A stretch of 64,000 nt of DNA from Mumia sp. Pv4-285 (GTDB lineage: Bacteria; Actinomycetota; Actinomycetes; Propionibacteriales; Nocardioidaceae), in NCBI RefSeq assembly GCF_041320275.1, contig NZ_CP162023.1, positions 186,001 to 250,000 on the forward strand, read 5' to 3'. How positions within the stretch are numbered: position 1 is the first letter of the stretch; each line of letters opens with the position of its first letter. Positions 32,378 to 52,982 of the stretch are shown here, piece after piece. A program made the translations under genes and the position numbers. The notes below the pieces were generated by a model. That model had not been told where the DNA came from. It made no database searches and worked only from the letters and a program-made list of their open reading frames with translations.

Positions 32378-33313
32378 TCACGCGCGGACGCGGTGCTCCT
32401 TGGGACTGATGCCGCGCTCACGCTTGAACGCCGTGCTCAGGGCGAACCCGCTCCCGTAGCCGACCTCGCGCGCCACCGTCTCGAGCGTCGCGTCCGGGTC
32501 GAGCAGGCGGTCGGCGGCGAGCGCGAGCCGCCAGCCGGTCAGGTACGTCATCGGCGGCTCGCCCACCAGCTCCGCGAAGCGCCGCGCGAGCCCGGCGCGC
32601 GAGACGCCCGCGCTCGTCGCGAGGTTCTCGACCGTCCAGGGGCGGGCCGGGTCCTCGTGCAGCATCCGCAGTGCGCTGCCGACGACCGGGTCGCCGTACG
32701 CCCGGTACCACGCGGGTTGCCCCGCGCCCGCGCTCCGCGCGAACCACGCCCGCAGCACCGACACGAGGACCAGGTCGAAGAGCCGGTCGAGCACGGCGTC
32801 CTGTCCCGGCCCGTCCTTGGCGATCTCGTCCGCGAGCAGCGCGACGACCGGGGACTCGAGCTCGTCGGCGTCGAGGCTGAGCATCGTCGGCAGCGCGGCC
32901 AGGAGTCGCCTGCTGACCTCGCCCCGCAGCTGGTAGCAGCCGATCAGCATGACGGTCGACCCGTCGGCGCTGTTGCCCCACGTACGCCGCCCGAGATCCA
33001 TCCGCTCGGAGAGGTCCTCGCCGTCGGGGCTGGTGCACAACAGCCCGGGGTGGAGGACCACCTGCGGCTCGGTGCTCGCACCGTCCGCGAAGGTGAACGG
33101 CTCCGGTCCGCGCAGGATGGCGACGCCGCCCGGACCGAGCGTCACCGACTCGCCCGAGTCCGACGCGAGCCACGCCGACCCCTCCAGCATCGCGACGACA
33201 CCCACCGGCGCGCGGTCCTGCACGCGCACGGCCCACGGCGGTTCCATCTGCACGCGCAGCAGGTAGGCGCCGCGGCCACGAGGACCGTCGAGCAGACGAG
33301 CCAGGGCGTCCAT
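32378..33313 (-). CDS. AraC-family transcriptional regulator with cupin sensor
   Basis: A 311-residue protein. The N-terminal cupin_6-type domain (MDALARLLDGPRGRGAYLL, WAVRVQDRAP) is followed by a C-terminal AraC double HTH (PWTVENLATSAGVSRAGLARRF, TLETVAREVGYGSGFALSTAFKRERGISPKEHR). The start at MDALARLL fits the family N terminus. It is divergent from the NmrA-like and MFS operon, about 80 nt apart, and probably controls it. Confidence 0.88.
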   Translation of the reverse strand: MDALARLLDGPRGRGAYLLRVQMEPPWAVRVQDRAPVGVVAMLEGSAWLASDSGESVTLGPGGVAILRGPEPFTFADGASTEPQVVLHPGLLCTSPDGEDLSERMDLGRRTWGNSADGSTVMLIGCYQLRGEVSRRLLAALPTMLSLDADELESPVVALLADEIAKDGPGQDAVLDRLFDLVLVSVLRAWFARSAGAGQPAWYRAYGDPVVGSALRMLHEDPARPWTVENLATSAGVSRAGLARRFAELVGEPPMTYLTGWRLALAADRLLDPDATLETVAREVGYGSGFALSTAFKRERGISPKEHRVRA

Positions 33314-33394
33314 GGGTCGCATTCTAGACGCTCGCACATGTTTTTGAGCCCTGAAGCCATGGAGCATCCACGCGTGCTGCAGTCGACTGGAGTC

Positions 33395-34279
33395 ATGGAC
33401 ACCACAGCTCACCACCCAGACCTGACCCTCGTCACGTGCGGCACCGGCAAGACCGGTCGCCGCGTCGCCTCCCGACTCACCGCCGCACGGCACGCCGTCC
33501 GTGTCGGCTCACGGTCGGCTCACCCACCGTTCGACTGGTCCGACCGGGCGACGTGGGAACCCGCGCTCGCCGACGTCGACGCGGTCTACCTCGCTTACCT
33601 GCCCGACATCGGCGCTCCGAGCGCGCCCGCCGACATCGGCGCCTTCGCCGACCTCGCGACGTCGATGGGCGTACGCCGAGCGGTCCTGCTGTCCGGTCGC
33701 GGCGAGCAGCAGGCGCAACGCTGCGAGGAGGTCGTACGGAGTCGTCCGTGGGACTGGACGATCGTGCGTTCGGCGGTCTTCAGCCAGGACTTCAGCGAGG
33801 CATTCCTCTACGAACCGGTGCTCAGCGGTGTCGTCGCGTTCCCCGCCGGCCGGGTCGCCGAACCGTTCGTCGATGCCGACGACGTCGCGGACGTGGCGGT
33901 CGCGGCGCTCACCGAGGCGGGGCACGCCGGCCAGACGTACGAGGTCACCGGTCCGCGATCGCTGACGTTCGCGGAGGCCGTAGCCGCGATCGGAGCTGCC
34001 ACCCATCGGTCGCTCCGCTATGTCCCCGTCCCACCCGACGCGTACGCGGCGGCCCTCGTCGAGGAGGCCGGGTTGCCGTCAGAGGAGGCCGGCTTCCTGG
34101 CCGCGCTCTTCACGACCCTCTTCGACGGTCGCAACGCCGCGACGACCGACGGAGTGGAGCGCGCCCTGGGCCGGGCGCCGCGGGACTTCACCGACTACGT
34201 ACGCCGTACGGCGCGCGAGGGCGTGTGGGATGTCGCTGCGCCGGTCGCCCCGCCGATCTCAGAACCGGCGACGCCATGA
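33395..34279 (+). CDS. NmrA/SDR-like NAD(P)-binding protein
   Basis: A 294-residue atypical short-chain dehydrogenase. LTLVTCGTGKTGRRVASRL is the dinucleotide-binding loop, and DVDAVYLAYLPDIG, AVLLSGRGEQ, WTIVRSAVFSQDF and VDADDVADVAVAAL follow the NmrA-like pattern. The active-site Tyr-x3-Lys of classical SDRs is not seen, so it may be a redox sensor or a quinone reductase of the YtfG kind. Its stop overlaps the start of the MFS gene (ATGA). Confidence 0.82.
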   Translation: MDTTAHHPDLTLVTCGTGKTGRRVASRLTAARHAVRVGSRSAHPPFDWSDRATWEPALADVDAVYLAYLPDIGAPSAPADIGAFADLATSMGVRRAVLLSGRGEQQAQRCEEVVRSRPWDWTIVRSAVFSQDFSEAFLYEPVLSGVVAFPAGRVAEPFVDADDVADVAVAALTEAGHAGQTYEVTGPRSLTFAEAVAAIGAATHRSLRYVPVPPDAYAAALVEEAGLPSEEAGFLAALFTTLFDGRNAATTDGVERALGRAPRDFTDYVRRTAREGVWDVAAPVAPPISEPATP

Positions 34280-35866: not shown

Positions 35867-36015
35867 TGGTCTCGATCGCTTCGCGCCTCGACCAGCGGGG
35901 GAAGAACGGCTCGACCAGCGGGGGAAACGGCTCGACCAGCGGGGGAAGAACGGCTCGACCAGCGGGGGAAGAACGGCTCGACCAGAGGGTGGGGCGACTC
36001 GAGCAGCGAGTGCTG
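35867..36015. repeat. dispersed repeat followed by five tandem half-units
   Basis: One full 28-bp unit (35868-35895), then CTCGACCAGCGGGGGAAG-type units repeated five times with 21-23 nt spacing, the last degenerate. No unique spacers, so not CRISPR. It lies between the MFS gene and the giant FN3 gene and partly explains the 320-nt gap. Confidence 0.75.
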
Positions 36016-36039: not shown

Positions 36040-36063
36040 ATGAATATTCACGTTCCTGAGACA
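36040..36063 (+). promoter_or_regulatory. motif shared by both PA14-FN3 genes (copy 1)
   Basis: TGAATATT, a 3-nt spacer, GTTC, one nucleotide, TGAGACAC. The same arrangement occurs at 46666-46690 upstream of the paralogous gene, in both cases about 60-66 nt before the start codon. The surrounding sequences differ, so this is probably a conserved promoter element or operator. Confidence 0.55.
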
Positions 36064-36122
36064 CGGGATGGAAGCGCTTCATAGTCTCGCGTCATCCCTC
36101 CGGCCCAGTCTCGGGAGCAGTC

Positions 36123-39100
36123 TTGAACAACGTCGTTCGTTCGCCCCGCCCGCTTGCCCTCCTCGTCGCCTTCGTGCTCATCGCCAGCACGCTCGCACTC
36201 GCCCCCGGACTGGCCGACCCGGCCTCCGCAGCGCCGACCGCGACCAAGTGCGCCAAGTCCGGCCGCTGGCTCGCGCAGTACTACAAGGGCACCGCCTTCA
36301 AGGGCCGCCCCGTCGTCACCCGCTGCGAGAAGCGTGTCGCCGCCTCGTACCCGGCCAAGCGCAAGCCGTTCTCCGTGCGCTGGTCCACGACGCGCACGCT
36401 GAAGGGCTCGTACGAGGTTCGCGCCCGCGCCGTCGGCAAGGCCACCTTGCGGATCGACGGCCGCACGGTTGCCACGACGACGAACGGCCGGTACGCCGCC
36501 GGCGTGCGCAAGCTCCGCAAGGGCAAGCACACGATCGAGGTTCGCTACGTCAAGAGGTCCGGCGCCGGTTCCGTCGCTGCCGAGTACGTGAAGGCTCCCG
36601 ACCGCAAGGCGCCCGCCACGCCGACCTCCGTACGACCGGTGGCCGGCGATCGTGCCGTGGCCCTGACCTGGAGGGCTTCCTCGTCCCTCGACCTACGGGG
36701 CTACCGGGTCTACCGCAACGGCCGCCTGATCCGCGAGGTCAGCACGCCGCGCTTCACCGACACCCGACTGACCAACGGCACGGCCTACACGTATGCGATC
36801 AGCGCGGTCGACCACCGCGGCAACGCCTCGCGCCTCAGCGGTGCGGTGCGCGCCATCCCCCGCGACCGGGTCGCCCCCAGGACCCCCGCCGGGTTCGTCG
36901 CCGACGCCGGTGACGGCAAGGTCACGCTGACGTGGAAGAAGAACGCCGAGTCTGACCTCGCCGGCTACGTGCTGCGCCGCACCGGCGGCGGCACCGCAAA
37001 GAGCTGGAGCCTCGCCAAGACCACGACGACATCGACCGACTCGAGCGCGGTCAACGGCACGACGTACGTGTACTCCCTCGTGGCCCGCGACACGTCGGGC
37101 AACTCCTCGTCGCCGGCGCTGCAGGGCGCGACGCCGATCGACAAGAGCGCGCCGGCCACGCCGACGGGTCTGACAGCCTTCGGTGGCGACGGCGAGGTCG
37201 CACTGAGCTGGACGAAGAACACCGAGCCCGACCTCGACGGCTACGTCATCACCCGGACGCGCGCGGACGGCACGGGCGTGGTGGTGGAGATCGAGGCCGG
37301 CGTGGACGCCACCACGCTCACCGACACGAGCGCGGAGAATGACGTCGCCTACCTCTACACGATCCGTGCGGTCGACGGACGCGGCAACGCCTCGGCTGAC
37401 TCCATGCCCGTCCCGGCGACACCGAAGGCCGACGTCCCGGACGACACGACCCCACCCGCAGCTCCGAAGGGTCTTGCCGCCGAGGCCGGCGACGGCGAGG
37501 TCGCGCTGAGCTGGGACGCGAACGGTGAGCCCGATCTCGACGGCTACACGGTCTACCGCAAGAGCGGCGCCGGGAGCTACATCGCGATCGGCGAGGTCGC
37601 CGGCGGCACCGCCGCGTACACCGACGAGGACGCCGAGAACGACACGCTCTACACGTACGCGGTCGCCGCGTTCGACGAGAGCGGCAACACCTCGGAGTTC
37701 AGCAACGAGGCCACGGCCACACCCACCGACACCTCCCCGCCGGCCACGCCGGCGACCCCCACGGCGGTCGCCGGTGACGAGCAGGTCGCCCTGACGTGGA
37801 CCGCGAACACCGAGAGCGATCTCGGCGGCTACCGCGTGTACCGCTCCGAGACGGCAAATGTGCCGACGACCGGTGACGGCATCGCGGGTGTGGTCCCGAC
37901 GGCGAGTTTCGCCGACGAGTCGGTCACGAACGGCACGACGTACTACTACGTCGTCGTCGCGGTGGACACCCACGGCAACCGGTCGGCGGCTTCGGGCAGC
38001 GCCTCGGCCACGCCGGTCGACACCACGCCGCCGGCCGCGCCGACGGGACTCACCGCCGCGGCGACCGAGCGCCAGATCGCGCTCGACTGGGCTGACAGCA
38101 CGGCGCCCGACCTCGACCACTACGCGGTCTACCGCTCCGGCGGCGCCGCGGGTCTCGCCGCCGAGGACACGCCGATCGCTGAGGTGGACGACTCCGAGTA
38201 CGTCGACACGACCGTCGAGCCCGGCACGGCGTACGCGTACTGGGTGGTCGCCGTCGACGCTGCCGGCAACCCGTCTGCTGCGTCCGAGACGGTCGACGTC
38301 ACGAGCGTCGAGCCCGCGCCCGAGCCGGTCCACCAGAAGTTCGTGTTCCAGTCCGCGTCCGGCCCGGGAGTCTCGGGCTACACGAAGCAGACCGGCACCG
38401 CCTGGAGCGACGCGGCAGGCAACGGCTTCGTCCGCCAGGACAGCCTGAGTGCTGCCACGCACGTGCCGCTCGACATGACGACCAACACGCGTTTCCGCAC
38501 GCGGCCGTCGCCCGTCACTGCGCTGCAGAACAGCCTCGTCCACCTGCAGTACGCCGACGCCACCCCGCCCCTCACCGCTGGACAGAACACCGTGCCGGGC
38601 GCCTTCGAGATCGCCGTCCCCGACGGCTGGTACGCCGTGAAGGTCTCGGTCGGCGACCAGGGCGGGGCCAACGGCTGGGACAGCACCCACGTCGTGAACG
38701 TCGAGGGTGAGAAGGCGATCGACGCCTTCAAGAGCTCGGCGGCGAAGGAGTACGAGACGGGTACGGCGACCGTCGAGGTCATCGACGGACGGCTCACCGT
38801 CGACGCGCTCGGCGGCACCAACACCAAGATCAACTACGTCGAGGTCGACAGCACCGACGAGCCCGAGCCGCCGGTCGACGTGGACGAGAAGTACGTCTTC
38901 ACCACGGCTGCGGACAACGCGGTCCCGACCGGCTGGACCAAGAACGACGGGTCCGCGTGGACGAGCGGGTCGGGCATCGGCTGGGTGACCCAGGCGAGCC
39001 TTGCGACGGCGACGCACGAGCCGGTCGACCTCACGAAGAACACCCGCGCCCGGGCCCGTACGGCTCCCGTCACGGCACTCCAGAACCGGCTTATCCACAT

Positions 39101-42100
39101 GCAGTACGGGGACGTGCCCAACGGGACGGACGCCAACGGCAACAAGACTGCGGGCGCCTTCGAGCGGGCGGTGCCGGACGGCTGGTACTCGGTCACCGTC
39201 AGCGTCGGCGACCAGATGGGCGCCACCGCGTACGACAGCCTGCACACGATCCGCGCCGAGGGCGTCACGATCGTCGGCGGCTTCCAGGCGACCGCGGCCA
39301 AGGAGTACGAGGTCGCGACCGGTGTGGTCCACGTGACCGACGGTCGCCTCACCATCGATGCCATCGGCGGCACGAACACCAAGATGAACCACCTGTCGAT
39401 CGTCACCACCGAAGCGCCGAGCGAGCCCGACGTGCACCGTGCGGTCCGCTTCGCCGACGAGGCCAGCGCCCCGCCGGCCGGCTACCTCAAGGACTTCGGT
39501 GAGGCGTACGGTCTGCGGACCGGGGCCGGCCAGGGCACCGGGCTCGCGTACGGGTGGCTGCGCCTCGGCACGGTCGACCCGCTGAGCATCGTCGGCAACG
39601 GACGCAACCGCCTCGACGGCAGCGCGGGCTCGGCACCCGCCGGGACACCCCTGCTGCGAGCCGGCACGATCCACATGCAGCTGCCGGACAACGCGAGCCA
39701 GGGCGTGAAGATCCCGGCCTACTGGGAGATGGCGGTGCCCAGCGGGTCGTACCGTGTCGAGGTCTCCGTCGGCGACGCCGGTACCGCGATCGACTCCGTG
39801 CACTGGCTGAACCTCGAGGACCAGAACGCGATCGCCGGGTACGTCCCGACGGGCGCTGCAGGATCTGCGACGAAGCACGCGACTGCGACCCGTACGGTCA
39901 ACGTCACCGACGGCCGGCTCACCATCACCCCGACGGGCGGCACGAACACCAAGATCAACTGGGTGACGCTCGACAGCGTCGCTGGTGCGTCGCTGCGGCC
40001 GTCGGTGCGCAAGTCGACACCGGCCAACCTCGCCACCGGCGTCTCGCCGACCGGCAGCGTCGTCAGCGACCTGAACCTCGTCGGCGGCGGTGTCGCACCG
40101 GCGTCGCTGCACGGCGGCACCGTTCGTCTGGTGAAGGTCTCCGACGGCAGCGCGGTCGACGGCAGCGCTCTGACGAGTGGCGGCGCGGACACGATCAACT
40201 TCTCGCCCACCGCGTCGCTCGCCGACAGCACGGCGTACCGGCTCGAGATCACCGACGGCGTGAAGGACGTCGACGGTCGCGCGTTCCTCCCGTACTCGAT
40301 GGTCTTCACCACCGGCACGGGCACGACGCCTGCTGGTCCGATCGCGTTCGCCAAGAGCGACTCCGGTGCACCGGCCGGCGGGATGTACACGTCGGTCGTC
40401 AAGGGACCGGACGGCAAGATGTACGCCGGCTCCATCACCGGTGAGATCTATCGCTTCGACATCCAGGCCGACGGCACGCTCGCCAACCGGCAGACGATCA
40501 ACAGCGTCAAGAACTACTCGAACGGCGCAGCCAGCGGCGACACCTACAACAAGGGCACGCGCACGGTCATCGGCCTCGCGTTCGACCCGGCGTCGACCGC
40601 GAACAACCTGATCCTGTGGATCAGCGACAACGCGCCGTACCTGGGGACGAGCAACGTGCCCGACTCGAGCGGGCGCATCGCGAAGCTGACCGGCGCGAAC
40701 CTGGAGAACTACCAGGCGATCGTCTCCGGCCTCCCGCGTTCGGTGAAGGACCACGAGGCCAACTCGGTCGCGTTCGGGCCCGACGGCGCGCTGTACCTCA
40801 ACGTCGGTGCGAACAACGCGATGGGTGCCCCCGACGGAGCGTGGGCCAACCGCGAGGAGCGGCTGCTCTCCGCGGCGGTCCTGCGGCTCGACCCGGCCAA
40901 GCTGCCGACCGCCGCGCAGCTTCCGGTGAACGTGCGGACCGGCGACGCCGGCCCGTACAACCCGTTCGCGACCGACGCCCCGCTGGCGCCGTACGCGACG
41001 GGCGTCCGCAACGCGTACGACCTGGTGTGGCACAGCAACGGACACCTCTACGTGCCGACGAACGGGTCCGCTGCGGGCGGCAACGTCCCCGCCGTCCCGG
41101 ACACGCTGCCCGCGGTCTGCGCGAACCGTCCCGACGGCGGCTACACGGGCCCGAAGGTCGCGGCGCAGACCAGCAACCCCGAGGAGACGGACTACGTCTT
41201 CGACATCAAGAAGGGGAAGTACTACGGGCACCCGAACCCGTCGCGCTGCGAGTACATCCTCAACAACGGCAACCCGACCGCCGCGAAGGACCCGTTCGAG
41301 AACTCGAAGTACCCGGTGGGGACGCAGTCCGACCCCAACTACGCGCTCTCCGACGTGTACGACGCAGGGCTGCACGCCAGCGCGAACGGCGTCATCGAGT
41401 ACAAGAGCAGCGCGTTCGGCGGTGCGCTCAAGGGCAAGCTGCTCTACGTCCGCTACAGCAGCGGCCGCGACATCGTCTCCTTCGACGTCGGCGCCGACGG
41501 CAAGCTGTCGAACCGCAAAGAGGCGCTGAGCGGCACGACCAACCTGCAGCAGCCGCTCGACCTCACCGAGGACGCGGCGACGGGCAACATCTACGTCACG
41601 CAGATGACCGACAACCCGGCGACGACGTCCATCGCGCTGCTCAAGCCGCAGGGCGGCAACGGCGGTCCGGGAGCGGAGGTCTCGCCGCGGGTCGTCCTCA
41701 GCGGGCCGGTCAACGTCACGTCGCCCGCCGCGACGGCGAAGGTGACCAACACCGGGTCGCAGACACTGACGATCCCCGCCGGCGGCCTCGCGCTCACCGG
41801 CTCCGACGCGACGGCGTTCATGGTCACCACGCCCAACACCGCGCCCATCACGGTCGCGCCGGGCGGGTCGACGACGATCGCCGTCACGTTCCGTCCCACG
41901 TCGGTCGGCGTGAAGTCGGCCTCGCTTCAGATCACGACCGACGCCGGCGCGCGGACCGTCGTGCTCCGCGGCCTGGCAGCGGCCGGGCTCGGCGGATCCA
42001 ACGAACCGTCGCTGCAACGCATCATGGACACGCTGCAGATCCCGATCAACGTCGGCGACACCGATCCGAGCAACGCGTCGATGCCGTCGACGCAGGGCCT

Positions 42101-44390
42101 GATCGGTGACGAGATCGCGGCGCAGCGCTTCCAGAAGGCCGCGTTCGACTCGCCGATCAGCATCACCCCGCTGGCGGCGTACGGACCGCAGAACAACGAT
42201 CCGGCTGTGCACGTCGGCTGGTACGACGCCGGGCAGCCGGCGAGCCTCCACGCGCAGTTCTCGATCAAGGCGTCCGAGGCGCAGGGGCTGATGCTCAACC
42301 CGACCGGATCGACGACCAACATCGACCCGGGCGAGGAGAACGTCTTCGGGTTCTACTCCGAGTGGCCGTACTTCAGCGGACGCAAGGCCTACACCGAGGA
42401 CGCCCTCAACACGTGGGACGCAGCACTCCCGCACCACCTCCGCGTCTATCCGTACAAGAACGCCGACGGGTCCGTCGAGCCGAACGCGTACGTGGTCGCG
42501 ACCGAGGAGGTGCCGGGCTCGCCGTTCGACAGCCAGGACATCGTGCTGCTGGTCCGCAACGTCAAGCCGTACGTCCCCGCCGAGGCGGAGGGCGCGGTGC
42601 TCAGGGCCGTGAACGCCGACCCGGTGCCGTTCGAGGACCAGATCGCGTTCAACCGGATCCAGGCCCCCTTCGACGGGAGCCAGAAGGTCGCCGACACCGG
42701 CACCGTACGGATCAGCAACCCGGGGACCGCGCCGCTGCAGGTGACCGGGCTCCCCGTCACAGGCCAGTTCGAGCTGGTGAACGCGCCGTCGCTGCCGTTG
42801 ACGGTCGCACCCGGTGCGACGCGAGACCTGACCGTGAAGTTCGTCGCGCAGTCGACCAAGGTCCACACCGGCACGCTCACCGTGCAGTCCAACGCCGAGA
42901 CCAATCCCGTGCAGGTGATCCAGCTCGGTGGCCTCTGGCAGTCGCAGAGCGAGGGTGGTCAGGAGCCGAACCTGTCGCAGATCGCGAAGGCGTTCGGCAT
43001 CGGCAGCAACATCCCGAACGGGTTCTCCAGCAAGGGTGAGTTCGCGCCCATCGGCGACGAGGTCCTCTCCCCGTACTGGTCGCGCATCGACACCACCAAG
43101 CCGGTGGCCGTACGGCAGCTCGCCGGGTTCCACACCTACCCGAACGGCGCCTCGCTGCGGTGGCAGAACAAGACTGGTTCCCTGGGGAATCTGTTCGGGA
43201 TGGGCGGGCAGTACGCGCAGTCGCTGCTGCCTCGCAACTCGAACAACGTCGGTGCCGCACCGGCTGCGGGCTCGTTCACTCCGGGGACTTCCTTCGGCTT
43301 CGCCGTCGACGGCGAGCACGGTGATCGCACCAAGAACAACGAACAGGTCGACATCGAGAACGGGTGCGTCGCCCCCTGCGGCCAGCACGTTCGCCTGTGG
43401 CCGGTCAAGGACCGTACAGGGGCCCTGGTCCCAGGCACGTACGTGCTCTCGATGGACTACGCGGGGATCAATTACGACTACCAGGACAACGTCTACCTCG
43501 TCAGCAACATCCGGCCCGAGGTCATCACCGCGCCGCAGGTGGTCGCGACCCCCGGCAACAACAAGGTGACGCTCTCGTGGGGACGCAACCCGTACGACGT
43601 GGGTGTCGGCTACCGGGTGTGGCGCGGGACGACCGCCAACTTCACCGTCAACGACGCTTCGCTGATCAGCGGGCCGACCTCGACCGCTCCGATCTCGGCG
43701 ACGACGTTCACCGACAACGCTGCGGTGAACGGGACGACGTACTACTACGTGGTGCGCGCCGTCTACCAGGGCCTCGGCAACTCCGAAAACGGCACCGCCT
43801 CGGCGACCCCGACAGCGGCTGCGCAGACGGTCGACGTCAAGGTCGACTTCGGCAACGAGGCCGCGACGCTCCCGTCGGGCTACCTGAAGGACTTCGGTCA
43901 GGCCTTCGGTGCTCGCACGCGTCCTGACCAGGGCACCGGGCTGACGTACGGCTGGCTCGGTGAGAGCACGTTGCAAGCGCTCGACCTCTCCGTCGGCGGC
44001 ACGACGGGCCCCGGGAACGGGCGTTGGCGCAAGTCGGTGCAGCCTGACCTCCGGCTCGACACGTTCATGCACATGCAGGCCGACGACGTGCCGAACTTCA
44101 ACGGGACCCCGTTGCCGGGACGCTGGGAGCTCGCGGTGCCGAACGGCACGTACGCCGTCACCGTGGCCGTTGGCGATCCCAACGTGGGCTCCGACCCGGA
44201 GATCCACACGCTCAACGTCGAGGGGAGGAAGGCGATCGACGCGTTCGCACCGACCGGCGCGGCGGGCAGCGCGACGCGGCACAGGACGGCGACCGTCCAG
44301 GTCACGGTGAACGACGGTCGGCTGACGGTGGACGCACTCGGGGGCACGAACACGAAGATCGACTACGTGGACGTCGCCAGCGTCGGCTGA
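36123..44390 (+). CDS. giant secreted PA14 / FN3 / malectin-like / beta-propeller protein
   Basis: A 2755-residue exported protein. Signal peptide to about 38, then a PA14-like domain (about 40-160: GRWLAQYYKG, FSVRW, ATLRIDGRTV, HTIEVRYV). Six fibronectin-III repeats (about 162-732) precede three malectin-like domains (about 738-910, 920-1097, 1103-1287; each ends GGTNTKIN or similar). Next come an SbsA/Big_5-like Ig domain (about 1293-1400), a glucose/sorbosone-dehydrogenase-like propeller (about 1403-1840) and two choice-of-anchor-D domains alternating with a duplicated unknown domain (about 1847-2460). A seventh FN3 and a fourth malectin-like domain close it. TTG start with GGGAG 6 nt upstream. 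No sortase signal. Inferred role: extracellular carbohydrate binding or adhesion. Confidence 0.87.
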   Translation: MNNVVRSPRPLALLVAFVLIASTLALAPGLADPASAAPTATKCAKSGRWLAQYYKGTAFKGRPVVTRCEKRVAASYPAKRKPFSVRWSTTRTLKGSYEVRARAVGKATLRIDGRTVATTTNGRYAAGVRKLRKGKHTIEVRYVKRSGAGSVAAEYVKAPDRKAPATPTSVRPVAGDRAVALTWRASSSLDLRGYRVYRNGRLIREVSTPRFTDTRLTNGTAYTYAISAVDHRGNASRLSGAVRAIPRDRVAPRTPAGFVADAGDGKVTLTWKKNAESDLAGYVLRRTGGGTAKSWSLAKTTTTSTDSSAVNGTTYVYSLVARDTSGNSSSPALQGATPIDKSAPATPTGLTAFGGDGEVALSWTKNTEPDLDGYVITRTRADGTGVVVEIEAGVDATTLTDTSAENDVAYLYTIRAVDGRGNASADSMPVPATPKADVPDDTTPPAAPKGLAAEAGDGEVALSWDANGEPDLDGYTVYRKSGAGSYIAIGEVAGGTAAYTDEDAENDTLYTYAVAAFDESGNTSEFSNEATATPTDTSPPATPATPTAVAGDEQVALTWTANTESDLGGYRVYRSETANVPTTGDGIAGVVPTASFADESVTNGTTYYYVVVAVDTHGNRSAASGSASATPVDTTPPAAPTGLTAAATERQIALDWADSTAPDLDHYAVYRSGGAAGLAAEDTPIAEVDDSEYVDTTVEPGTAYAYWVVAVDAAGNPSAASETVDVTSVEPAPEPVHQKFVFQSASGPGVSGYTKQTGTAWSDAAGNGFVRQDSLSAATHVPLDMTTNTRFRTRPSPVTALQNSLVHLQYADATPPLTAGQNTVPGAFEIAVPDGWYAVKVSVGDQGGANGWDSTHVVNVEGEKAIDAFKSSAAKEYETGTATVEVIDGRLTVDALGGTNTKINYVEVDSTDEPEPPVDVDEKYVFTTAADNAVPTGWTKNDGSAWTSGSGIGWVTQASLATATHEPVDLTKNTRARARTAPVTALQNRLIHMQYGDVPNGTDANGNKTAGAFERAVPDGWYSVTVSVGDQMGATAYDSLHTIRAEGVTIVGGFQATAAKEYEVATGVVHVTDGRLTIDAIGGTNTKMNHLSIVTTEAPSEPDVHRAVRFADEASAPPAGYLKDFGEAYGLRTGAGQGTGLAYGWLRLGTVDPLSIVGNGRNRLDGSAGSAPAGTPLLRAGTIHMQLPDNASQGVKIPAYWEMAVPSGSYRVEVSVGDAGTAIDSVHWLNLEDQNAIAGYVPTGAAGSATKHATATRTVNVTDGRLTITPTGGTNTKINWVTLDSVAGASLRPSVRKSTPANLATGVSPTGSVVSDLNLVGGGVAPASLHGGTVRLVKVSDGSAVDGSALTSGGADTINFSPTASLADSTAYRLEITDGVKDVDGRAFLPYSMVFTTGTGTTPAGPIAFAKSDSGAPAGGMYTSVVKGPDGKMYAGSITGEIYRFDIQADGTLANRQTINSVKNYSNGAASGDTYNKGTRTVIGLAFDPASTANNLILWISDNAPYLGTSNVPDSSGRIAKLTGANLENYQAIVSGLPRSVKDHEANSVAFGPDGALYLNVGANNAMGAPDGAWANREERLLSAAVLRLDPAKLPTAAQLPVNVRTGDAGPYNPFATDAPLAPYATGVRNAYDLVWHSNGHLYVPTNGSAAGGNVPAVPDTLPAVCANRPDGGYTGPKVAAQTSNPEETDYVFDIKKGKYYGHPNPSRCEYILNNGNPTAAKDPFENSKYPVGTQSDPNYALSDVYDAGLHASANGVIEYKSSAFGGALKGKLLYVRYSSGRDIVSFDVGADGKLSNRKEALSGTTNLQQPLDLTEDAATGNIYVTQMTDNPATTSIALLKPQGGNGGPGAEVSPRVVLSGPVNVTSPAATAKVTNTGSQTLTIPAGGLALTGSDATAFMVTTPNTAPITVAPGGSTTIAVTFRPTSVGVKSASLQITTDAGARTVVLRGLAAAGLGGSNEPSLQRIMDTLQIPINVGDTDPSNASMPSTQGLIGDEIAAQRFQKAAFDSPISITPLAAYGPQNNDPAVHVGWYDAGQPASLHAQFSIKASEAQGLMLNPTGSTTNIDPGEENVFGFYSEWPYFSGRKAYTEDALNTWDAALPHHLRVYPYKNADGSVEPNAYVVATEEVPGSPFDSQDIVLLVRNVKPYVPAEAEGAVLRAVNADPVPFEDQIAFNRIQAPFDGSQKVADTGTVRISNPGTAPLQVTGLPVTGQFELVNAPSLPLTVAPGATRDLTVKFVAQSTKVHTGTLTVQSNAETNPVQVIQLGGLWQSQSEGGQEPNLSQIAKAFGIGSNIPNGFSSKGEFAPIGDEVLSPYWSRIDTTKPVAVRQLAGFHTYPNGASLRWQNKTGSLGNLFGMGGQYAQSLLPRNSNNVGAAPAAGSFTPGTSFGFAVDGEHGDRTKNNEQVDIENGCVAPCGQHVRLWPVKDRTGALVPGTYVLSMDYAGINYDYQDNVYLVSNIRPEVITAPQVVATPGNNKVTLSWGRNPYDVGVGYRVWRGTTANFTVNDASLISGPTSTAPISATTFTDNAAVNGTTYYYVVRAVYQGLGNSENGTASATPTAAAQTVDVKVDFGNEAATLPSGYLKDFGQAFGARTRPDQGTGLTYGWLGESTLQALDLSVGGTTGPGNGRWRKSVQPDLRLDTFMHMQADDVPNFNGTPLPGRWELAVPNGTYAVTVAVGDPNVGSDPEIHTLNVEGRKAIDAFAPTGAAGSATRHRTATVQVTVNDGRLTVDALGGTNTKIDYVDVASVG

Positions 44391-44514: not shown

Positions 44515-46350
44515 CTACGCCTCCAGGCGCGCCTTCAGTCCGTCGAGCTCGGTCCAGAGAACGGCCGGCAGCTTGTCGCCGAACTTCTCGAACCACTCGT
44601 TGATCTGCGGGATCTCGGCCTTCCACTCGTCGACGTCGACGGCGAGGGCCTTCTCGAGCTGCTCGTCGGTCACGTCGAGGCCGTCGGTGTCGAGTGCCCC
44701 CGGCGCCGGCACGAGGCCGATCGGGGTCTCGACGGCGTCGACCTTGCCCTCGATGCGCTCGACGACGTACTTGAGCACACGGCTGTTCTCGCCGAAGCCC
44801 GGCCAGAGGAAGCCGCCGTCCTCGTCACGTCGGAACCAGTTGACGTAGAAGACCTTCGGGAACTTCGACTCGTCGTTGTTCTTGGCCATCGAGATCCAGT
44901 GGCTGAAGTAGTCACCGGCGTCGTAGCCGATGAACGGCAGCATCGCCATCGGGTCGCGGCGGACGACGCCGACCGCGCCGGTGGCGGCAGCCGTGGTCTC
45001 CGACGAGAGCGTGGCGCCCATGAAGGTGCCGTGGGTCCAGTCGCGGGCCTCGGTCACCAGCGGGATCGTCGTCTTGCGCCGACCGCCGAAGAGGATCGCG
45101 TCGATCGGGACGCCGTTGGGGTCGTCGTACTCCGGCGCGAGGATCGGGCACTGGCGGATCGGGGTGCAGAAGCGGCTGTTCGGGTGCGACGAGAGCTCGT
45201 CGGACGCGGGCGTCCAGTCGCGGCCCTTCCAGTCGGTCAGGTGCGCGGGGGCGTCCTCGGTCATGCCCTCCCACCAGATGTCGCCGTCGTCGGTGAGAGC
45301 GACGTTGGTGAACACCGAGTTGCCCTGGGCGATGGTGCGCATCGCGTTGGCGTTGGTGTCCCAGCCGGTGCCCGGCGCGACACCGAACAGACCGAACTCG
45401 GGGTTGACGGCGTACAGGCGGCCGTCGGCTCCGACGCGCATCCAGGCGATGTCGTCGCCGAGGGTCTCGACCTTCCAGCCCTCGATCGTGGGCTCGACCA
45501 TCGCGAGGTTTGTCTTGCCGCAGGCGCTCGGGAACGCGGCGGCGACGTACTTGACGTCACCCTCCGGCGAGGTGAGCTTGAGGATGAGCATGTGCTCGGC
45601 GAGCCAGCCCTCGTCGCGGCCCATCACCGAGGCGATGCGGAGCGAGTAGCACTTCTTGCCGAGGAGGGCGTTGCCGCCGTAGCCGGAGCCGAACGACCAG
45701 ATCATGCGCTCCTCGGGGAACTGCACGATGTACTTGGTGTCGCTGCAGGGCCACGGGACGTCGGCCTGGCCCGGCTCGAGCGGGGCGCCGACGGAGTGGA
45801 GCGCGGGGACGAAGGACGCGTCGGTGGCCTCGATCTTGTCGAGGACCTCGCGGCCGACGCGTGCCATCACGCTCATGGACGCCACCACGTAGGCGGAGTC
45901 GGTGATCTCCACGCCGAACATCGGGTGGGCGGAGTCGAGGTGACCCATCACGAACGGGATCACGTACATGGTGCGGCCGCGCATCGAGCCGTCGTACAGC
46001 TCGATCATGAGCTTCTTCATCTCCGACGGCGCCATCCAGTTGTTGGTGGGACCGGCGTCGGCCTCGTCGACGCTGCAGATGAAGGTGCGGTCCTCGACGC
46101 GCGCGACGTCGGTCGGGTCGGAGGCGCACCAGAAGGAGTTCGGCTTCTTGGTCTCGTCGAGTCGGACGAAGGTGCCGGCCTCGACGAGGTCGTCGGTGAG
46201 GCGGGTCCACTCGTCGGGGGTGCCCTCGATCCAGGTGATCGAGTCGGGCTTGGTCAGCGCGGCGACCTCGTCGACCCAGGCCTGGAGCTCGGCGTGTGTC
46301 GAGCGGTAGGAGGTCGTCACTGAGTCGTACGTGGTGGTGTCTGCGGCCAT
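44515..46350 (-). CDS. pckG: phosphoenolpyruvate carboxykinase (GTP)
   Basis: A 611-residue GTP-dependent PEPCK of canonical length and sequence, interconverting oxaloacetate and PEP in gluconeogenesis. Key blocks: [30 protein letters not shown]-loop FPSACGKTN (C277, K279), [25 protein letters not shown] and [12 protein letters not shown]. The start was set at 46350 (MAADTTTY), since the frame upstream lacks family similarity and GAAGGA is about 11 nt away. A divergent second PEPCK lies at 53595-55442. The 400-nt gap upstream holds its promoter and that of the facing FN3 gene. Confidence 0.97.
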
Positions 46351-46665
46351 GGTGTGTGTAGTCCTTCTCGCATCGCGATTCAAGCGTGTTGATCGCACTG
46401 CCTGATCCATCCTGTGGACGGGCAGCTGATGTGGATAGGTGGTCGCGGCCCGCGCGATCTCAGCCGGGAACCGGTCCGAACCACGCGGGTCGTGTGGTCA
46501 ATGTATGCCCCGTGTCGCCACATCCATGAGTTCGGGTCCAGGGAAGTGAACTAAGTCACAAAGGGCCTCTGACCTGCGGTTTTATGTTGATTGAACCCAC
46601 AAATGCGTGGACGCTCGTGTCGCCCCAGGTCACGGCGTCCCGGCGGCACCTTTCGCCGCGCGTGC
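46351..46665. other. divergent promoter region of pckG and the second FN3 gene
   Basis: No gene is visible. It contains an AT-richer patch around 46550-46610 (TTTATGTTGATTGAA) in otherwise GC-rich sequence, which is a plausible promoter zone. No operator could be assigned with confidence. Confidence 0.35.
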
Positions 46666-46690
46666 TGAATATTGGAAGTTCGTGAGACAC
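46666..46690 (+). promoter_or_regulatory. motif shared by both PA14-FN3 genes (copy 2)
   Basis: TGAATATT, a 4-nt spacer, GTTC, one nucleotide, TGAGACAC, 66 nt before the GTG start. It matches the copy at 36040-36063 at 20 defined positions, apart from a one-nucleotide spacer difference. Co-regulation of the two paralogues is inferred. Confidence 0.55.
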
Positions 46691-46755
46691 CGGTCATGCC
46701 CGGCGCTTACGGTTCCCGTACGACGTCCAGCCAGCCCCAGCTCGGGAGAGACCAG

Positions 46756-49700
46756 GTGATCCACGTCCTCAGGCGTGCACGCACGCTCGGCGCCATCGTC
46801 GGTGCCACCCTGGTCGCGAGCCTGCTCGTGCTGGTGCCGGGTGCCTCCGACCCGGCCTCTGCGGCGTCCGCGGCGCCGACCGCGGCGTCGTGCGCGAAGT
46901 CCGGACGCTGGCTCGCCCAGTACTACAAGGGCACCTCTTTCACGGGCAAGCCCGTCAGGAAGCGGTGCGAGAAGCGCATCGCCGCCTCGTACCCCGCCAG
47001 CCGCCAGCCCTTCGCCGTGCGGTGGAGCAGGACCCGCACCATGAAGGGCTCGTACGAGCTGCGTGCTCGCGCCACCGGCACGGCCACGTTGCGCATCGAC
47101 CGGCGGAAGGTCGCGACCGCGTCGCAGGGTCGGTACGCCGCCGCGGTGCGCACGCTGCGCAAGCGCAAGCACACCGTCGAGGTCCGCTACGTCAAGGGTG
47201 TCGGCGCCGGTTCCGTCCACGCCCAGCTCGTCAAGGCTCCCGACCGTACGCCGCCGGCGAGGCCGGGCGGCCTGCGTGCGGTCGCCGGTGACCGGGCCGT
47301 CGCCCTCGCGTGGAAGGCCCCGAGGGCGATCGACGTGCGCGGCTACCGCGTGTACCGCGACGGGCGACTGGTCCAGCAGGTCGCGACCCGGGCCGTCACC
47401 GACATCGGGCTGACGAACGGCGTCGCCATGGCGTACGCCGTCGTGGCCGTCGACCACCGCGGCAACGCGTCGCGGGCCGCGCGTGTCAGCGTGACGCCCA
47501 AGGACCAGGTCGCACCCCAGACCCCGACCGACCTCGTCGCCACCGCCGGTGACGGCACGGTCGCGCTCCGCTGGGACCAGGGTGCCGCGAGCGACCTCTC
47601 GTCCTACGTCCTCCGCCGCTCGGGTGGTGGAGCCGACAAGACGTGGACGCTCCCGACCTCGGCGACGAGCGTGGTCGACGCACCTGTCGTCAACGGCACG
47701 GTGTACGCGTACTCGCTCGTCGCCCGCGACACCTCCGGCAACACGTCGGCGCCTGCGCTTGCCGGAGCGGTGCCGGCAGACGCCGCCGCGCCATCGACAC
47801 CTGCGGGCTTCGAGGCCATCGGCAAGGACGCCTGCGTCGAGCTGAGCTGGACCGCCAACACCGAGAGCGACCTCGCCGGCTACGTCATCACCCGCATGCG
47901 CTCCGACGGGATCGGCGCGCCCGCAGAGTTCGCCCTCGGAGCGGGCGCCACGCGGTTCTCCGACACCAGCGCCAAGAACGGCGTCGCCTACGCCTACACG
48001 ATCGTCGCGCGCGACACCTCGGGCAACCGCTCGGGCGGGTCGACGGCCCCGGCGACTGCACGCGACATGGTCCCGCCGGCGGTGCCGCAGGGGCTCGCGT
48101 CGGCTGTCGACGACGGCGCGGTCGTGCTGCGCTGGACGGCTCCCACGGACGACACCGCCTCGTACACGGTCTGGCGGTCCGACGACGGCGACGAGTTCGT
48201 CAAGATCGGTGTGGCGGTCGGTACGGCGCCGACGTACACCGACCACGACGTCGCCGAGAAGGTGCTGTACCGCTACCGCATCGTCGCCGTCGACGGTGCC
48301 GGCAACGTCTCCGCCCCCTCCGGACCTGCCGACGTGACGCTGCCCGACACCGATGCCCCCGAGACGCCGCGGGGCCTGGCGGTCGAAGCCCGCGACGGCC
48401 GCGTCGAGCTCACGTGGACGCCGAACGGCGAGGACGACCTCGCGGGCTATCGCGTCTACCGGTCCGTCGCCGGCGCGCCCTCCCAGGAGCTCGCCGACCT
48501 GGGTGCCAGCGCCGCAGGCTTCAGTGACGTCGACGTGGTCAACGGCACCACGTACACGTACGCGATCAGCGCCTACGACGACGACGACAACGAGTCGGGT
48601 CGTACGACCGGTCGCGCCGCGACGCCGCTCGACCGCGCCGCTCCGGCGGTGCCCTCGGGCCTGGCGGCCGAAGCCGGTGAGGGACAGGTGGCGCTGCGCT
48701 GGAACGCCAATGCGGAGGGCGATCTCGCCGCGTACGTCATCGTCCGCACCGGCGGTGCTGGCGACCCGACGCAGTTCCAGGTGGATGCGGGCACCGCGAC
48801 CTACGTCGACACGACGGCGAGGAACGGCACGACCTACGCGTACGTGATCCACGCGCGCGACCGCGTCGGCAACGTGTCGGCTGCGTCGCTGCCCGTGACG
48901 GCGACCCCGCAGGACGTCACCCCGCCTGCCGTTCCGCAGGCGTTCGCCGCCGTCCCGGGCGACCGCGAGGTCAGGCTGAGCTGGGACGCCGGCACGGAGG
49001 ACGACCTTGCCTCGTACACGCTCTTCCGGGCTGCAGGGGCCGGAGCCCTTGCCGAGCTGGCGACCGTCGACGGGACGGTCACGGCCTACACCGATGCGGC
49101 TGTCGTGAACGACACGCGCTACCGCTATGCGATCGCCGCGACCGACGCCGCCGGCAACGTGTCGGTCGTGTCGGCGGAGGTCGCCGCTGCGCCGACCGAC
49201 CTCACGGCGCCGGCGCCACCGGCGACGCCGACCGCTCGTGCCCGTGACCGCGAGGTCGCGCTGGCGTGGACGGCCAACACCGAGCGCGACATCGCCGGCT
49301 ACCGCATCTACCGTGCAACCACCCCCGACGTGCCGATCGTCGGCAACGGCATCGCCCGGCTCCTGCCGACGCCGGCGTACACCGACAAGGACGTCGCGAA
49401 CGGGACGACGTACTACTACGTCGTCGTCGCGGTCGACACCCACGGCAACGTGTCTGCTCCCTCGGGAAGCGTGGCCGCCACTCCAGAGGACGTGACGCCG
49501 CCCGCCGAGCCGACCGGGCTGGTCGCTCTGGTCGCGCGCGGCGCCGTCGCACTCGACTGGGCCGACAGCGACGCGAGCGATCTCGACCACTACCTGGTCT
49601 ACCGCGTGACCGTCGGCGGAGAGCCGCCGCTCGGCGACGAGCCGCCGCTGGCCGAGGCCACGGCTTCGTCGTACGTCGACGCAGAGGTCGGCGCCGGCAC

Positions 49701-49794
49701 CTCGTACGAGTACTGGGTCGTCGCCGTCGACACGGCCGGCAACGCCTCCGCGGCCTCGCTCACCGTCGCGGTCACCACGCCCGCGCAGGAGTGA
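46756..49794 (+). CDS. secreted PA14 / nine-FN3-repeat protein
   Basis: A 1012-residue exported protein paralogous to the N-terminal quarter of the 36123 gene. It has a signal peptide (to about 37), a PA14-like domain with the same blocks (GRWLAQYYKG, FAVRW, ATLRIDRRKV, HTVEVRYV) and nine fibronectin-III repeats of about 95 residues. Each FN3 begins with a (P/A)P-x-x-P turn and has V-x-L-x-W, GYRVYR-like and NG-T-YTYAI-like strands. The malectin and propeller parts of the paralogue are absent. The GTG at 46756 was chosen because GGGAG lies 7 nt upstream and the signal peptide then starts properly. Adhesion or matrix role inferred. Confidence 0.85.
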   Translation: MIHVLRRARTLGAIVGATLVASLLVLVPGASDPASAASAAPTAASCAKSGRWLAQYYKGTSFTGKPVRKRCEKRIAASYPASRQPFAVRWSRTRTMKGSYELRARATGTATLRIDRRKVATASQGRYAAAVRTLRKRKHTVEVRYVKGVGAGSVHAQLVKAPDRTPPARPGGLRAVAGDRAVALAWKAPRAIDVRGYRVYRDGRLVQQVATRAVTDIGLTNGVAMAYAVVAVDHRGNASRAARVSVTPKDQVAPQTPTDLVATAGDGTVALRWDQGAASDLSSYVLRRSGGGADKTWTLPTSATSVVDAPVVNGTVYAYSLVARDTSGNTSAPALAGAVPADAAAPSTPAGFEAIGKDACVELSWTANTESDLAGYVITRMRSDGIGAPAEFALGAGATRFSDTSAKNGVAYAYTIVARDTSGNRSGGSTAPATARDMVPPAVPQGLASAVDDGAVVLRWTAPTDDTASYTVWRSDDGDEFVKIGVAVGTAPTYTDHDVAEKVLYRYRIVAVDGAGNVSAPSGPADVTLPDTDAPETPRGLAVEARDGRVELTWTPNGEDDLAGYRVYRSVAGAPSQELADLGASAAGFSDVDVVNGTTYTYAISAYDDDDNESGRTTGRAATPLDRAAPAVPSGLAAEAGEGQVALRWNANAEGDLAAYVIVRTGGAGDPTQFQVDAGTATYVDTTARNGTTYAYVIHARDRVGNVSAASLPVTATPQDVTPPAVPQAFAAVPGDREVRLSWDAGTEDDLASYTLFRAAGAGALAELATVDGTVTAYTDAAVVNDTRYRYAIAATDAAGNVSVVSAEVAAAPTDLTAPAPPATPTARARDREVALAWTANTERDIAGYRIYRATTPDVPIVGNGIARLLPTPAYTDKDVANGTTYYYVVVAVDTHGNVSAPSGSVAATPEDVTPPAEPTGLVALVARGAVALDWADSDASDLDHYLVYRVTVGGEPPLGDEPPLAEATASSYVDAEVGAGTSYEYWVVAVDTAGNASAASLTVAVTTPAQE

Positions 49795-49883: not shown

Positions 49884-51767
49884 TCAGCGCTTCTTCGGCT
49901 TGCCGTAGACCATCACCGGCACCATGACGTCACCGCTGACGACCGTGGCGGTGGCCTTGCGTGCCTTCTTCTCGACGGCCTTTCGCCCGCTGCCGAGGCT
50001 CAGCGACGCGAAGACGTCGTTGCCGTGCTCCGCCCGCGACATCGCCGAGAGCAGACCGGGGAGCGACGTCACGTCGCTCATCGTCTCGTACTCCTCGTCG
50101 GCGTACTCGTCGTAGTACATGTCCTCGAACTCGTCCTCGTAGTCGTCCGACGAGCCGAAGGAACCACCGCTGACGGACAGGATGCCGATCGGCGACTTGA
50201 ACTTGCGCCGCGGCACCGCGACGTTGAGCCGCACCGTCTTCGTCGCCACGCCTGTCGCTCCGGTCTCGCGCTTGAGCACGGCGCGCAGCTTCAGCGTGCC
50301 GCCACGACGCACGAGCAGCGGAGAGGACGCCTTGACCCGGGTCCAGCGACCGAACTGCTTCGCCTCGACACGCGAGATCGCGTACGCCTGGTAGCCCTCG
50401 GTGATCGAGGTCGACTCGGTGGCGCCGAGGATCGTCACGTCCTCGAACCCGTTGGACAGGATCGATTCGATGTCGCCGGCGAAGGCCTCGGCGGCGCCCG
50501 CCGAGACGTCGAACCGGTCCGCGCTGATGTCATTGCGCGTGTACGTCAGGACCTGACCGTTGGAGCGACGCAGCTTGATCGCGCGGTTCGTCCGGACGAC
50601 GCCGCCGAACATGCCGTCGGTGAGCGTCATGCTGTCCATCGTCGACTGCATGCCGGCGACCGTTGACAGCCAGTCAGGGGACAGCACGGTCGTGGAGGAC
50701 GTACGGCTGCGGGTGCCGACGCGGTTCGTCGTACGGACCGCGGTGCCGGTCGGTGCGGCGCCGAGGCCGCCGACGATGGCCGTCAGCCGGTCCTGCGTGA
50801 TGGTCCCGATCGGAGCCCCGATGTTGGCGATCTTGAAGGAGCCGTCGTAGTCACGCTCGACGTAGACGGAGTCTGCGCCGTGCAGGGAGAGCCTGGTCTT
50901 GCCGAGCCAGTCCATCGGGTGGCCGAACCCGTAGACCTTCGTGCCGCAGACGGCGGTCGTCGTGCCGACACCGGCGAGCGGGAAGGATCCGTACGCATAG
51001 CCGGCGGCGAGGTTGGATCCGGCCGAGACGCCGATCCGCGTGGAGCTGGTCTTGCTGCTGCTCGACCCGTTGCGGAAGGTGACGTTCTTGAGCCGGGCCT
51101 TCTTGGCGATCGCCTTCGCGGACGCCGGCGAGAATCCGGCGGGGATGGTGACCGGGGTGGGAAGACGGCGCATCGCGCCGGTCGACGCCTGCGGGCTGGC
51201 ACCGGTGGCGCGCATCGAGGCGGCGACCTTGGTGGGGATCGCAGCAGCGGCAGAGCCTGCAGCGTACGACCCGGCGCGATAGAGGTCGGCGGCCGGCGTC
51301 ACACCGGCGTAGTCGCTCGGCGCCCACGACTGGCCGTACGCGACCGCGCCGACGAGCCGTCCGTCGGCCGCGTACAGCGGGGTGCCGGACATGCCGGACC
51401 AGATCCCGCGATCGACGGCACCGTTGGCGTCGGTGATCCGCGAGCCCTTCATCTTGAAGATCAGCATGTCGACGCCGGGCGCGATGCCGTCGTCGATCGT
51501 GCCGACGTACTCACCGCTCACGACGTCGGGCGTCGTGCCGGAGGTCACGGTCAGGCCCTGGACGGCGGTGCCTGCGGCCGTGGTCGTCGCGCGTACGAGG
51601 CCGGCCGGCGGGTACGCGGCGGGACACGCGGACCCGATCACGGGCGCCGAGGCGGGATCGTCGGCGAGTGCCGGGCCCGTCGCGGCGAGCGTCGCCGCCG
51701 TGACGGCGATCGTCGCGGCAGCCACGATCGTGAGGGTGCGCCGCCGGGCGGGCGCAGGTGCGGTCAT
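49884..51767 (-). CDS. secreted SpoIVB/S55-like serine protease with permuted motifs
   Basis: A 627-residue exported protein (signal peptide to about 36, ending ALADD). The S55 nucleophile motif GMSGTPLY (S127) with GRLVGAVAYG comes first. The His motif VYGFGHPMDWLG (H283), with ERDYDGSFKIANIGAPIGTITQDR, comes about 155 residues later. In SpoIVB the His motif precedes the Ser motif, so the order here looks permuted. An acidic, Tyr-rich low-complexity stretch (YEDEFEDMYYDEYADEEYE) lies near 555-575. GAGG lies 5 nt before the ATG. The organism shows no sporulation genes here, so a surface-maturation role is guessed. Confidence 0.75.
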   Translation of the reverse strand: MTAPAPARRRTLTIVAAATIAVTAATLAATGPALADDPASAPVIGSACPAAYPPAGLVRATTTAAGTAVQGLTVTSGTTPDVVSGEYVGTIDDGIAPGVDMLIFKMKGSRITDANGAVDRGIWSGMSGTPLYAADGRLVGAVAYGQSWAPSDYAGVTPAADLYRAGSYAAGSAAAAIPTKVAASMRATGASPQASTGAMRRLPTPVTIPAGFSPASAKAIAKKARLKNVTFRNGSSSSKTSSTRIGVSAGSNLAAGYAYGSFPLAGVGTTTAVCGTKVYGFGHPMDWLGKTRLSLHGADSVYVERDYDGSFKIANIGAPIGTITQDRLTAIVGGLGAAPTGTAVRTTNRVGTRSRTSSTTVLSPDWLSTVAGMQSTMDSMTLTDGMFGGVVRTNRAIKLRRSNGQVLTYTRNDISADRFDVSAGAAEAFAGDIESILSNGFEDVTILGATESTSITEGYQAYAISRVEAKQFGRWTRVKASSPLLVRRGGTLKLRAVLKRETGATGVATKTVRLNVAVPRRKFKSPIGILSVSGGSFGSSDDYEDEFEDMYYDEYADEEYETMSDVTSLPGLLSAMSRAEHGNDVFASLSLGSGRKAVEKKARKATATVVSGDVMVPVMVYGKPKKR

Positions 51768-51932
51768 GTCTACCTCATGGAGTCGGGTCGGCGGCGGGGG
51801 ATTGCCGACAGTCGGTGAAAGATATCCTCTCGACGGGGTCGCGCGGGCCCGATCGGACAGACTGGGGAACCCGATTTCGGTCTTCGCGAGCGACCCGCTA
51901 GAGTAGGTGTCGCTTCGCCAGTGGCGGGGCAA

Positions 51933-52005
51933 GCGCTCGTAGCTCAACGGATAGAGCATCTGACTACGGATCAGAAGGTTAGGGGTTCGAATCCCTTCGA
52001 GCGCG
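51933..52005 (+). tRNA. tRNA-Arg (anticodon ACG)
   Basis: A 73-nt cloverleaf. Acceptor GCGCTCG pairs with CGAGCGC. The D arm is AGCTCAACGGATAGAGC. The anticodon stem TCTGA/TCAGA has loop CTACGGA, giving anticodon ACG. The T arm is AGGGGTTCGAATCCCT. CCA is not encoded. It is followed at once by a strong hairpin. Confidence 0.95.
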
Positions 52006-52079: not shown

Positions 52080-52982
52080 TCAGCCGAGCACCGCGCTCAG
52101 GTCGAGCGCGTCGAGGCGGTCCGGGTCGGCGAGGACGTCGATGGCGGCGATCTTCTGGTCCACGATCGTGAAGGCCATCACCACCTGCGCCTTGCGCTTC
52201 GGCACCACCAGCAGGCCGGGCGCGCCGTTGACGAGGACGCGGTGCGTGAACGGGGCCAACGCCTCGGCGCCGCGGGCCTGCGCGGCGACCTGCTGGGCCC
52301 CGCGCAGCGTCAGCGTCAGCTGAGGTCGGGCGGTGCCGCCGTCGGAGCGCAGCACCACGTCAGGATCGAGCACCGCGACGAGCGCGTCGAAGTCGCCGCC
52401 GCGGGCCGCGGCCAGGAAGGCGTCGACCACCTGACGCTGGCGAGCCAGGTCCGGGTCCGGCGTCGGCGCCTGGCCGCGTACGCGCCGGCGGGCACGGCTG
52501 GCGAGCTGGCGTGCGGCCGCGGGCGAACGATCGAGCAGCGACGCGATCTCCTCGAAACCGACCCCGAACATGTCGTGCAGCACGAAGGCCAGCCGCTCAG
52601 CAGGGCTGAGTGAGTCGAGGACGACGAGCAGGGCCATGCCGACGCCGTCGGCGACCACCGCCGACGCCTCCGGGTCCACGCCCGGGTCTGGGCTGACGAC
52701 CGGGTCGGGCACGTGGACCAGGGACTGCTCTCGGCGCTGTCGCCGGGTCCGGAGCTGGTTGAGGCAGACCCGTGACAGGACCGTCCGAAGCCAGGCGCCG
52801 ATGTTCTCGACCGACTCGGTGTCGGCCCGGCTGACCCGGATCCAGGTGTCCTGCACCGCGTCCTCGGCGTCAGCGGCGGATCCGAGCATCCGGTACGCCA
52901 CCGCGCGCAGCTGTGGTCGGTGCTGCTCGAAGACCTGCTCGAGCCAGCCCTCAGGGTCGGTTCGTCGGTCGGGCTCGGTCAC
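52080..52982 (-). CDS. ECF41/SigJ-type extracytoplasmic-function sigma factor
   Basis: A 300-residue sigma factor. Region 2 (FEQHRPQLRAVAYRMLGSAADAEDAVQDTWIRV) and region 4 (LSPAERLAFVLHDMFGVGFEEIASLLDRSPAAARQLASRARRRV) are followed by a C-terminal SnoaL/NTF2-like domain (about 185-300) with a DGG motif. This is the ECF41 architecture, in which the fused NTF2-like domain replaces an anti-sigma factor. It is divergent from a DoxX gene, a common ECF41 target, with inverted TGTCACA elements between them. Confidence 0.9.
   Translation of the reverse strand: MTEPDRRTDPEGWLEQVFEQHRPQLRAVAYRMLGSAADAEDAVQDTWIRVSRADTESVENIGAWLRTVLSRVCLNQLRTRRQRREQSLVHVPDPVVSPDPGVDPEASAVVADGVGMALLVVLDSLSPAERLAFVLHDMFGVGFEEIASLLDRSPAAARQLASRARRRVRGQAPTPDPDLARQRQVVDAFLAAARGGDFDALVAVLDPDVVLRSDGGTARPQLTLTLRGAQQVAAQARGAEALAPFTHRVLVNGAPGLLVVPKRKAQVVMAFTIVDQKIAAIDVLADPDRLDALDLSAVLG

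Follow-up and report, generated by a model that had tools for sequence, protein, structure and literature searches.

Two genes for secreted proteins in Mumia sp. Pv 4-285 are preceded by the same compound motif, TGAATATT-N3/4-GTTC-N-TGAGACAC, which raises the question of whether a shared regulator or shared descent accounts for it. The window, meaning the whole 64,000-nucleotide stretch that was analysed, covers bases 186001-250000 of the 4,649,352-bp chromosome (PMC11737086). An earlier note on this DNA suggested that two surface proteins are served by one sigma factor or activator. Sequence comparison across the genus instead makes it probable that the motif forms the 5' half of an ordinary ancestral promoter, which was duplicated with its gene around a PEP carboxykinase (PEPCK) gene. 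The relevant features, in window coordinates, are:

36041-36057, + strand: AT-rich block directly 5' of the large-gene -35, forming the left part of the motif; putative UP-like or activator site (65% AT over 20 nt in a window of 69% GC; letters partly kept in orthologues)
36058-36063, + strand: large-gene -35-like hexamer GAGACA (GAC invariant in seven Mumia promoters)
36082-36087, + strand: large-gene -10-like hexamer TAGTCT (TANNNT), 18 nt past the -35 (TA...T unchanged, and always at this spacing, in seven promoters)
36110-36117, + strand: large-gene ribosome-binding sequence CTCGGGAG, also present in the paralogue
36123-44390, + strand: large gene, encoding a 2755-aa secreted protein with a PA14-like domain, FN3 repeats, a GSDH-like propeller and Ig-like domains
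44515-46410, - strand: PEP carboxykinase (GTP) gene, flanked by the two copies; the divergent promoter region of this gene marks where the family was located ancestrally
46666-46683, + strand: AT-rich block directly 5' of the small-gene -35 (60% AT over 20 nt; exact motif match)
46684-46689, + strand: small-gene -35-like hexamer GAGACA
46708-46713, + strand: small-gene -10-like hexamer TACGGT (TANNNT), 18 nt past the -35
46741-46748, + strand: small-gene ribosome-binding sequence CTCGGGAG
46756-49794, + strand: small gene, a paralogue of the large one, encoding a secreted protein of 1012 aa with FN3 repeats

A scan of the window finds exact motif matches at 36041-36064 and 46666-46690, both on the + strand, where shuffled versions of the window predict none. 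The motif is thus present in two copies as reported, although the first had been placed one base too far left (36040-36063), and the distances of 60 and 66 nt to the start codons become 58 and 65 nt when measured from the motif end. Inner spacing differs by one base between the copies. The whole-genome scan that had been proposed as a check returns exactly two matches in 4.65 Mb, before the 36123 and 46756 genes, and no further site with up to three mismatches at either spacing; many random genomic hits, named earlier as a ground for rejecting the shared-regulator idea, do not occur. Outside this strain, the exact motif occurs in none of five congener genomes, of which four do carry the gene, and a search of 197 other genomes of the family with a relaxed form gave no match.

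Both predicted proteins begin with an apparent signal peptide and a PA14-like domain followed by FN3 repeats, and their paralogy is evident from 65% amino acid identity over the N-terminal 260 residues; the GSDH-like propeller and Ig-like domains are additional to the larger protein. The position of the large-gene start codon is kept in orthologues. Calling both "giant PA14-FN3 genes" fits the first better than the second: they encode 2755 and 1012 residues, and the PA14 domain, scanned alone, exceeds the Pfam cut-off of 24 bits only in the former (26.8 versus 18.9 bits). Because inspection by eye revealed no LPXTG-type motif at either C-terminus, "secreted" is a safer label than "surface" for both proteins.

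Seven promoters of this gene family, from five Mumia species, were compared; being related, these promoters do not constitute independent tests. GAC-N19-TANNNT occurs exactly once within 160 nt of the start in all seven, compared to one occurrence in 1-2% of shuffles, and in the alignment neither GAC nor TA...T varies and no gap opens between them. The -35/-10 hexamers are GAGACA/TAGTCT, AGGACG/TACGCT, CTGACG/TAGAGT, CGGACA/TAGGGT, GAGACT/TAACCT, GAGACA/TACGGT and GAGACA/TACCGT, always 18 nt apart, while the other letters of the motif drift even in the sister species. The part of the earlier reading that gave the motif a role in transcription initiation is therefore supported, with a -35-like right end and a -10 located 18 nt further on in every copy; the part that called for a special sigma factor or activator of surface proteins is not. 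Streptomycete promoters have a TANNNT -10 and a BTGACN -35 (PMC8780764), and the -35 is reported to be weaker than consensus in most HrdB promoters (PMC6344877). When the Mumia promoters are compared with this principal-sigma form, TANNNT is found in 7/7 and NNGACN at 18 nt in 7/7; full BTGACN occurs only in G003, so that the -35 match is a weak one. They resemble actinobacterial SigA/HrdB promoters (PMC8780764, PMC6344877) in the TANNNT -10, the GAC core of the -35, the 18-nt spacing and a short leader with a ribosome-binding sequence, but most copies depart from the TT of TTGACA at -35 positions 1 and 2. An E. coli-style promoter scan gave nothing at either site, its match rule being too strict for these hexamers.

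The wider genome of Pv 4-285 is enriched in TTGAC-N18-20-TANNNT (47 versus 12 in the control), whereas the GAGAC-N18-20-TANNNT class is not enriched (19 versus 26). The narrower GAGACA-N17-19-TANNNT form occurs four times against none in the control. Of its two further sites, one precedes a 464-codon open frame and the other a frame judged by eye to be membrane-transporter-like; neither frame is a relative of the genes studied here, and the TGAATATT block is missing at both sites. The site before the 464-codon frame, GAGACA-N17-TACGTT at G000:C1:185846-185874, lies 127 bases left of the window. Among 21 other window genes, with starts taken roughly, none has GAC-N18-20-TANNNT within 250 nt. 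Homologues from genus g9 (G013, G035) have no NNGAC-N18-20-TANNNT in the stretch examined, and the two-box layout is established for Mumia only. In G001, the spacer between -35 and -10 of the large-gene promoter (contig C1) is taken up by a perfect palindrome of 14 bp, GTCGGCGCGCCGAC, and GTCAC-N6-GTGAC lies just upstream; these are possible operators in that species alone.

Gene order indicates how two copies arose. The large gene occurs in four congeners, M. xiangluensis (G005), M. quercus (G002), G003 and G001, and the small gene is found among them only in M. xiangluensis. M. quercus, G003 and G001 have a single copy that is divergent to the adjoining PEPCK gene, whereas Pv 4-285 and M. 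xiangluensis have the order large gene, PEPCK, small gene, where the small gene, with PEPCK on one side and the 49884-51959 neighbour on the other, is the one in the ancestral place. Copies that flank PEPCK in two species, against one copy in three, imply that the motif was inherited by duplication. Judged from synteny, the simplest history would be a segmental duplication around PEPCK, after which the copy in the old position was shortened. A tree of the N-terminal gene region, built to date the duplication, fits two groupings about equally well (AU p = 0.45 and 0.44).

The neighbourhood of PEPCK has features of its own. A perfect CRP-like palindrome, GTGA-N6-TCAC, lies at 46546-46559 in the intergenic region between PEPCK and the small gene. 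It is kept at the PEPCK gene in all five Mumia with the locus examined, with the M. xiangluensis copy located upstream of the small gene, and it probably places PEPCK under cAMP-receptor control. Five Mumia genomes share a strongly conserved box, TCTGACCTGCGGTTTTATGTTGATYG..ACAAA (46569-46604 here), in the stretch that separates PEPCK from the gene divergent to it. The window also has two GTP-type PEP carboxykinase-like genes within 11 kb (44515-46410 and 53595-55442), which are about 39% identical.

The best local alignment of the upstream regions of the two Pv 4-285 genes begins with the motif, continues across the spacer and reaches CTCGGGAG; it scores 27, compared to a highest score of 20 among 2000 shuffles. 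Similarity of the motif-to-start part alone is significant when the ribosome-binding part is included (p = 0.005) and loses significance when that part is left out (p = 0.28); 5' of the motif none is detectable (p = 0.40). The earlier statement that the sequences around the motif differ thus applies to its 5' side, whereas on the 3' side the alignment continues to a shared ribosome-binding sequence. Duplication of the upstream region, which the earlier note had named, if recent, as something that would refute its idea, largely holds; but the event lies far back, and constraint is still needed for the string to have survived. Fourfold-degenerate sites of the paralogues are only 55% identical, near the level expected from composition alone, whereas the shared string is identical at 20 of 24 letters. 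Neutral retention of such identity has a probability of 4e-5 to 4e-3 at 42-55% identity, a figure that applies to one preselected stretch and grows once choice of stretch is allowed for. With neutral sites so nearly saturated, a string that persists must be under constraint, and a core promoter with an UP-like block would explain this. Duplication thus accounts for the motif being in both copies, and purifying selection on a promoter for its still being readable.

The left block is kept better between the two copies than core-promoter needs alone predict (20 of 24 letters), and this counts against the promoter reading, as do the departures of most -35 hexamers from TTGACA, the GAGAC class without genome-wide enrichment and the 21 other window genes without the layout. 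AT content in the 20 nt before the -35 is 60-75% in five of the seven promoters and 45-50% in the other two. Block letters are kept in both Pv 4-285 copies and, for the most part, in the promoter of the M. xiangluensis large gene (TGAATTTTCACGTTT), and they drift in the small-gene promoter of that species and in other species. The simplest reading would be an UP-like role. With mycobacterial RNA polymerase, such sequences give about threefold stimulation (PMC5511352), and the Mumia block resembles such elements as AT-rich DNA directly 5' of a -35 in a GC-rich genome; it differs in having no A-tract of the SELEX consensus and in being weak in 2/7 promoters. Just upstream of the large-gene promoter, 4.6 tandem copies of a 23-bp unit (CTCGACCAGCGGGGGAAGAACGG) occupy 35887-35989; a different repeat-like stretch occurs at the same place in M. 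xiangluensis.

The two-box layout and its conservation, the paralogy, the synteny and the lack of a regulon have been established at the level of sequence, and a mechanism can be proposed on that footing. TGAGACAC would carry the -35 (GAGACA), with the -10 (TANNNT) 18 nt downstream, and TGAATATT-N3/4-GTTC would be the AT-rich stretch directly 5' of the -35. The -35 and -10 would be bound by RNA polymerase carrying a sigma factor that is presumably of principal type (SigA/HrdB-like), and the AT-rich block may assist; the simplest way would be for the alpha C-terminal domains to contact it as an UP-like site. Transcription is predicted to start about 28 and 35 nt before the respective start codons; a principal-sigma promoter would be expected to start about 7 nt past the -10.

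Other readings of the motif must be weighed against this promoter. A dedicated activator that binds TGAATATT-N3/4-GTTC 5' of a weak -35 and co-regulates both paralogues by class II activation would suit the non-consensus -35 and the block, which is exact in both Pv 4-285 copies and largely preserved before the large gene of M. xiangluensis. Such a regulator is nevertheless unlikely: the two sites within three mismatches both precede paralogues, whereas a regulon would have sites before further, unrelated genes of a shared function and none is found, their spacing differs by one base, and the letters drift in the M. xiangluensis small-gene promoter and in other species. The nearby candidates, an AraC-type regulator (32378-33493) and an ECF sigma factor (52080-52982), are rejected since they are not conserved with the promoter, having no match at the corresponding locus of M. 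xiangluensis, where both promoters are present. Together with the absence of the string from congeners, these results leave the proposed common sigma factor or activator unsupported. A narrower form of the idea, in which a Mumia-specific activator encoded elsewhere binds the same block by the weak -35, controls only the two secreted paralogues and has a site that drifted with the species, is quite unlikely.

Much lower odds attach to the remaining readings. WhiA, acting with WhiB, could bind GACAC, the WhiA consensus (PMC3781837), with which the motif ends, and the genome encodes WhiA; but GACAC is present in only four of the seven orthologous promoters, the AC not being conserved in three, and only the GAC expected of a -35 is invariant. 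This pentamer is also very common in actinobacterial genomes, with about 15,000 occurrences in S. venezuelae (PMC4850268). A WhiA site is rejected as very improbable. An alternative sigma factor such as the product of 52080-52982, an ECF-sigma gene with a SnoaL-like tail located 2 kb past the small gene, is still harder to credit as the reader of the motif. Promoters of ECF sigma factors have an ECF-type -10 in place of TANNNT, so the principal-sigma form TANNNT in every copy makes one unlikely, and the gene has no match in the syntenic stretches of M. xiangluensis, M. quercus and G003. That the shared string is a functionless leftover of duplication would agree with the paralogy of the genes and with the failure of most of the string to persist across species, but GAC-N19-TANNNT persists in 7/7 promoters, and fourfold sites near composition level make neutral retention of 20/24 letters unlikely; the chance that this reading is correct is almost nil.

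A striking motif in two copies within one genome can therefore be an inherited promoter rather than the mark of a regulon, and comparison of orthologous promoters among congeners tells the two apart. Although the wider importance of the finding is low, a testable promoter has been gained for an uncharacterised and very large secreted protein of Mumia.
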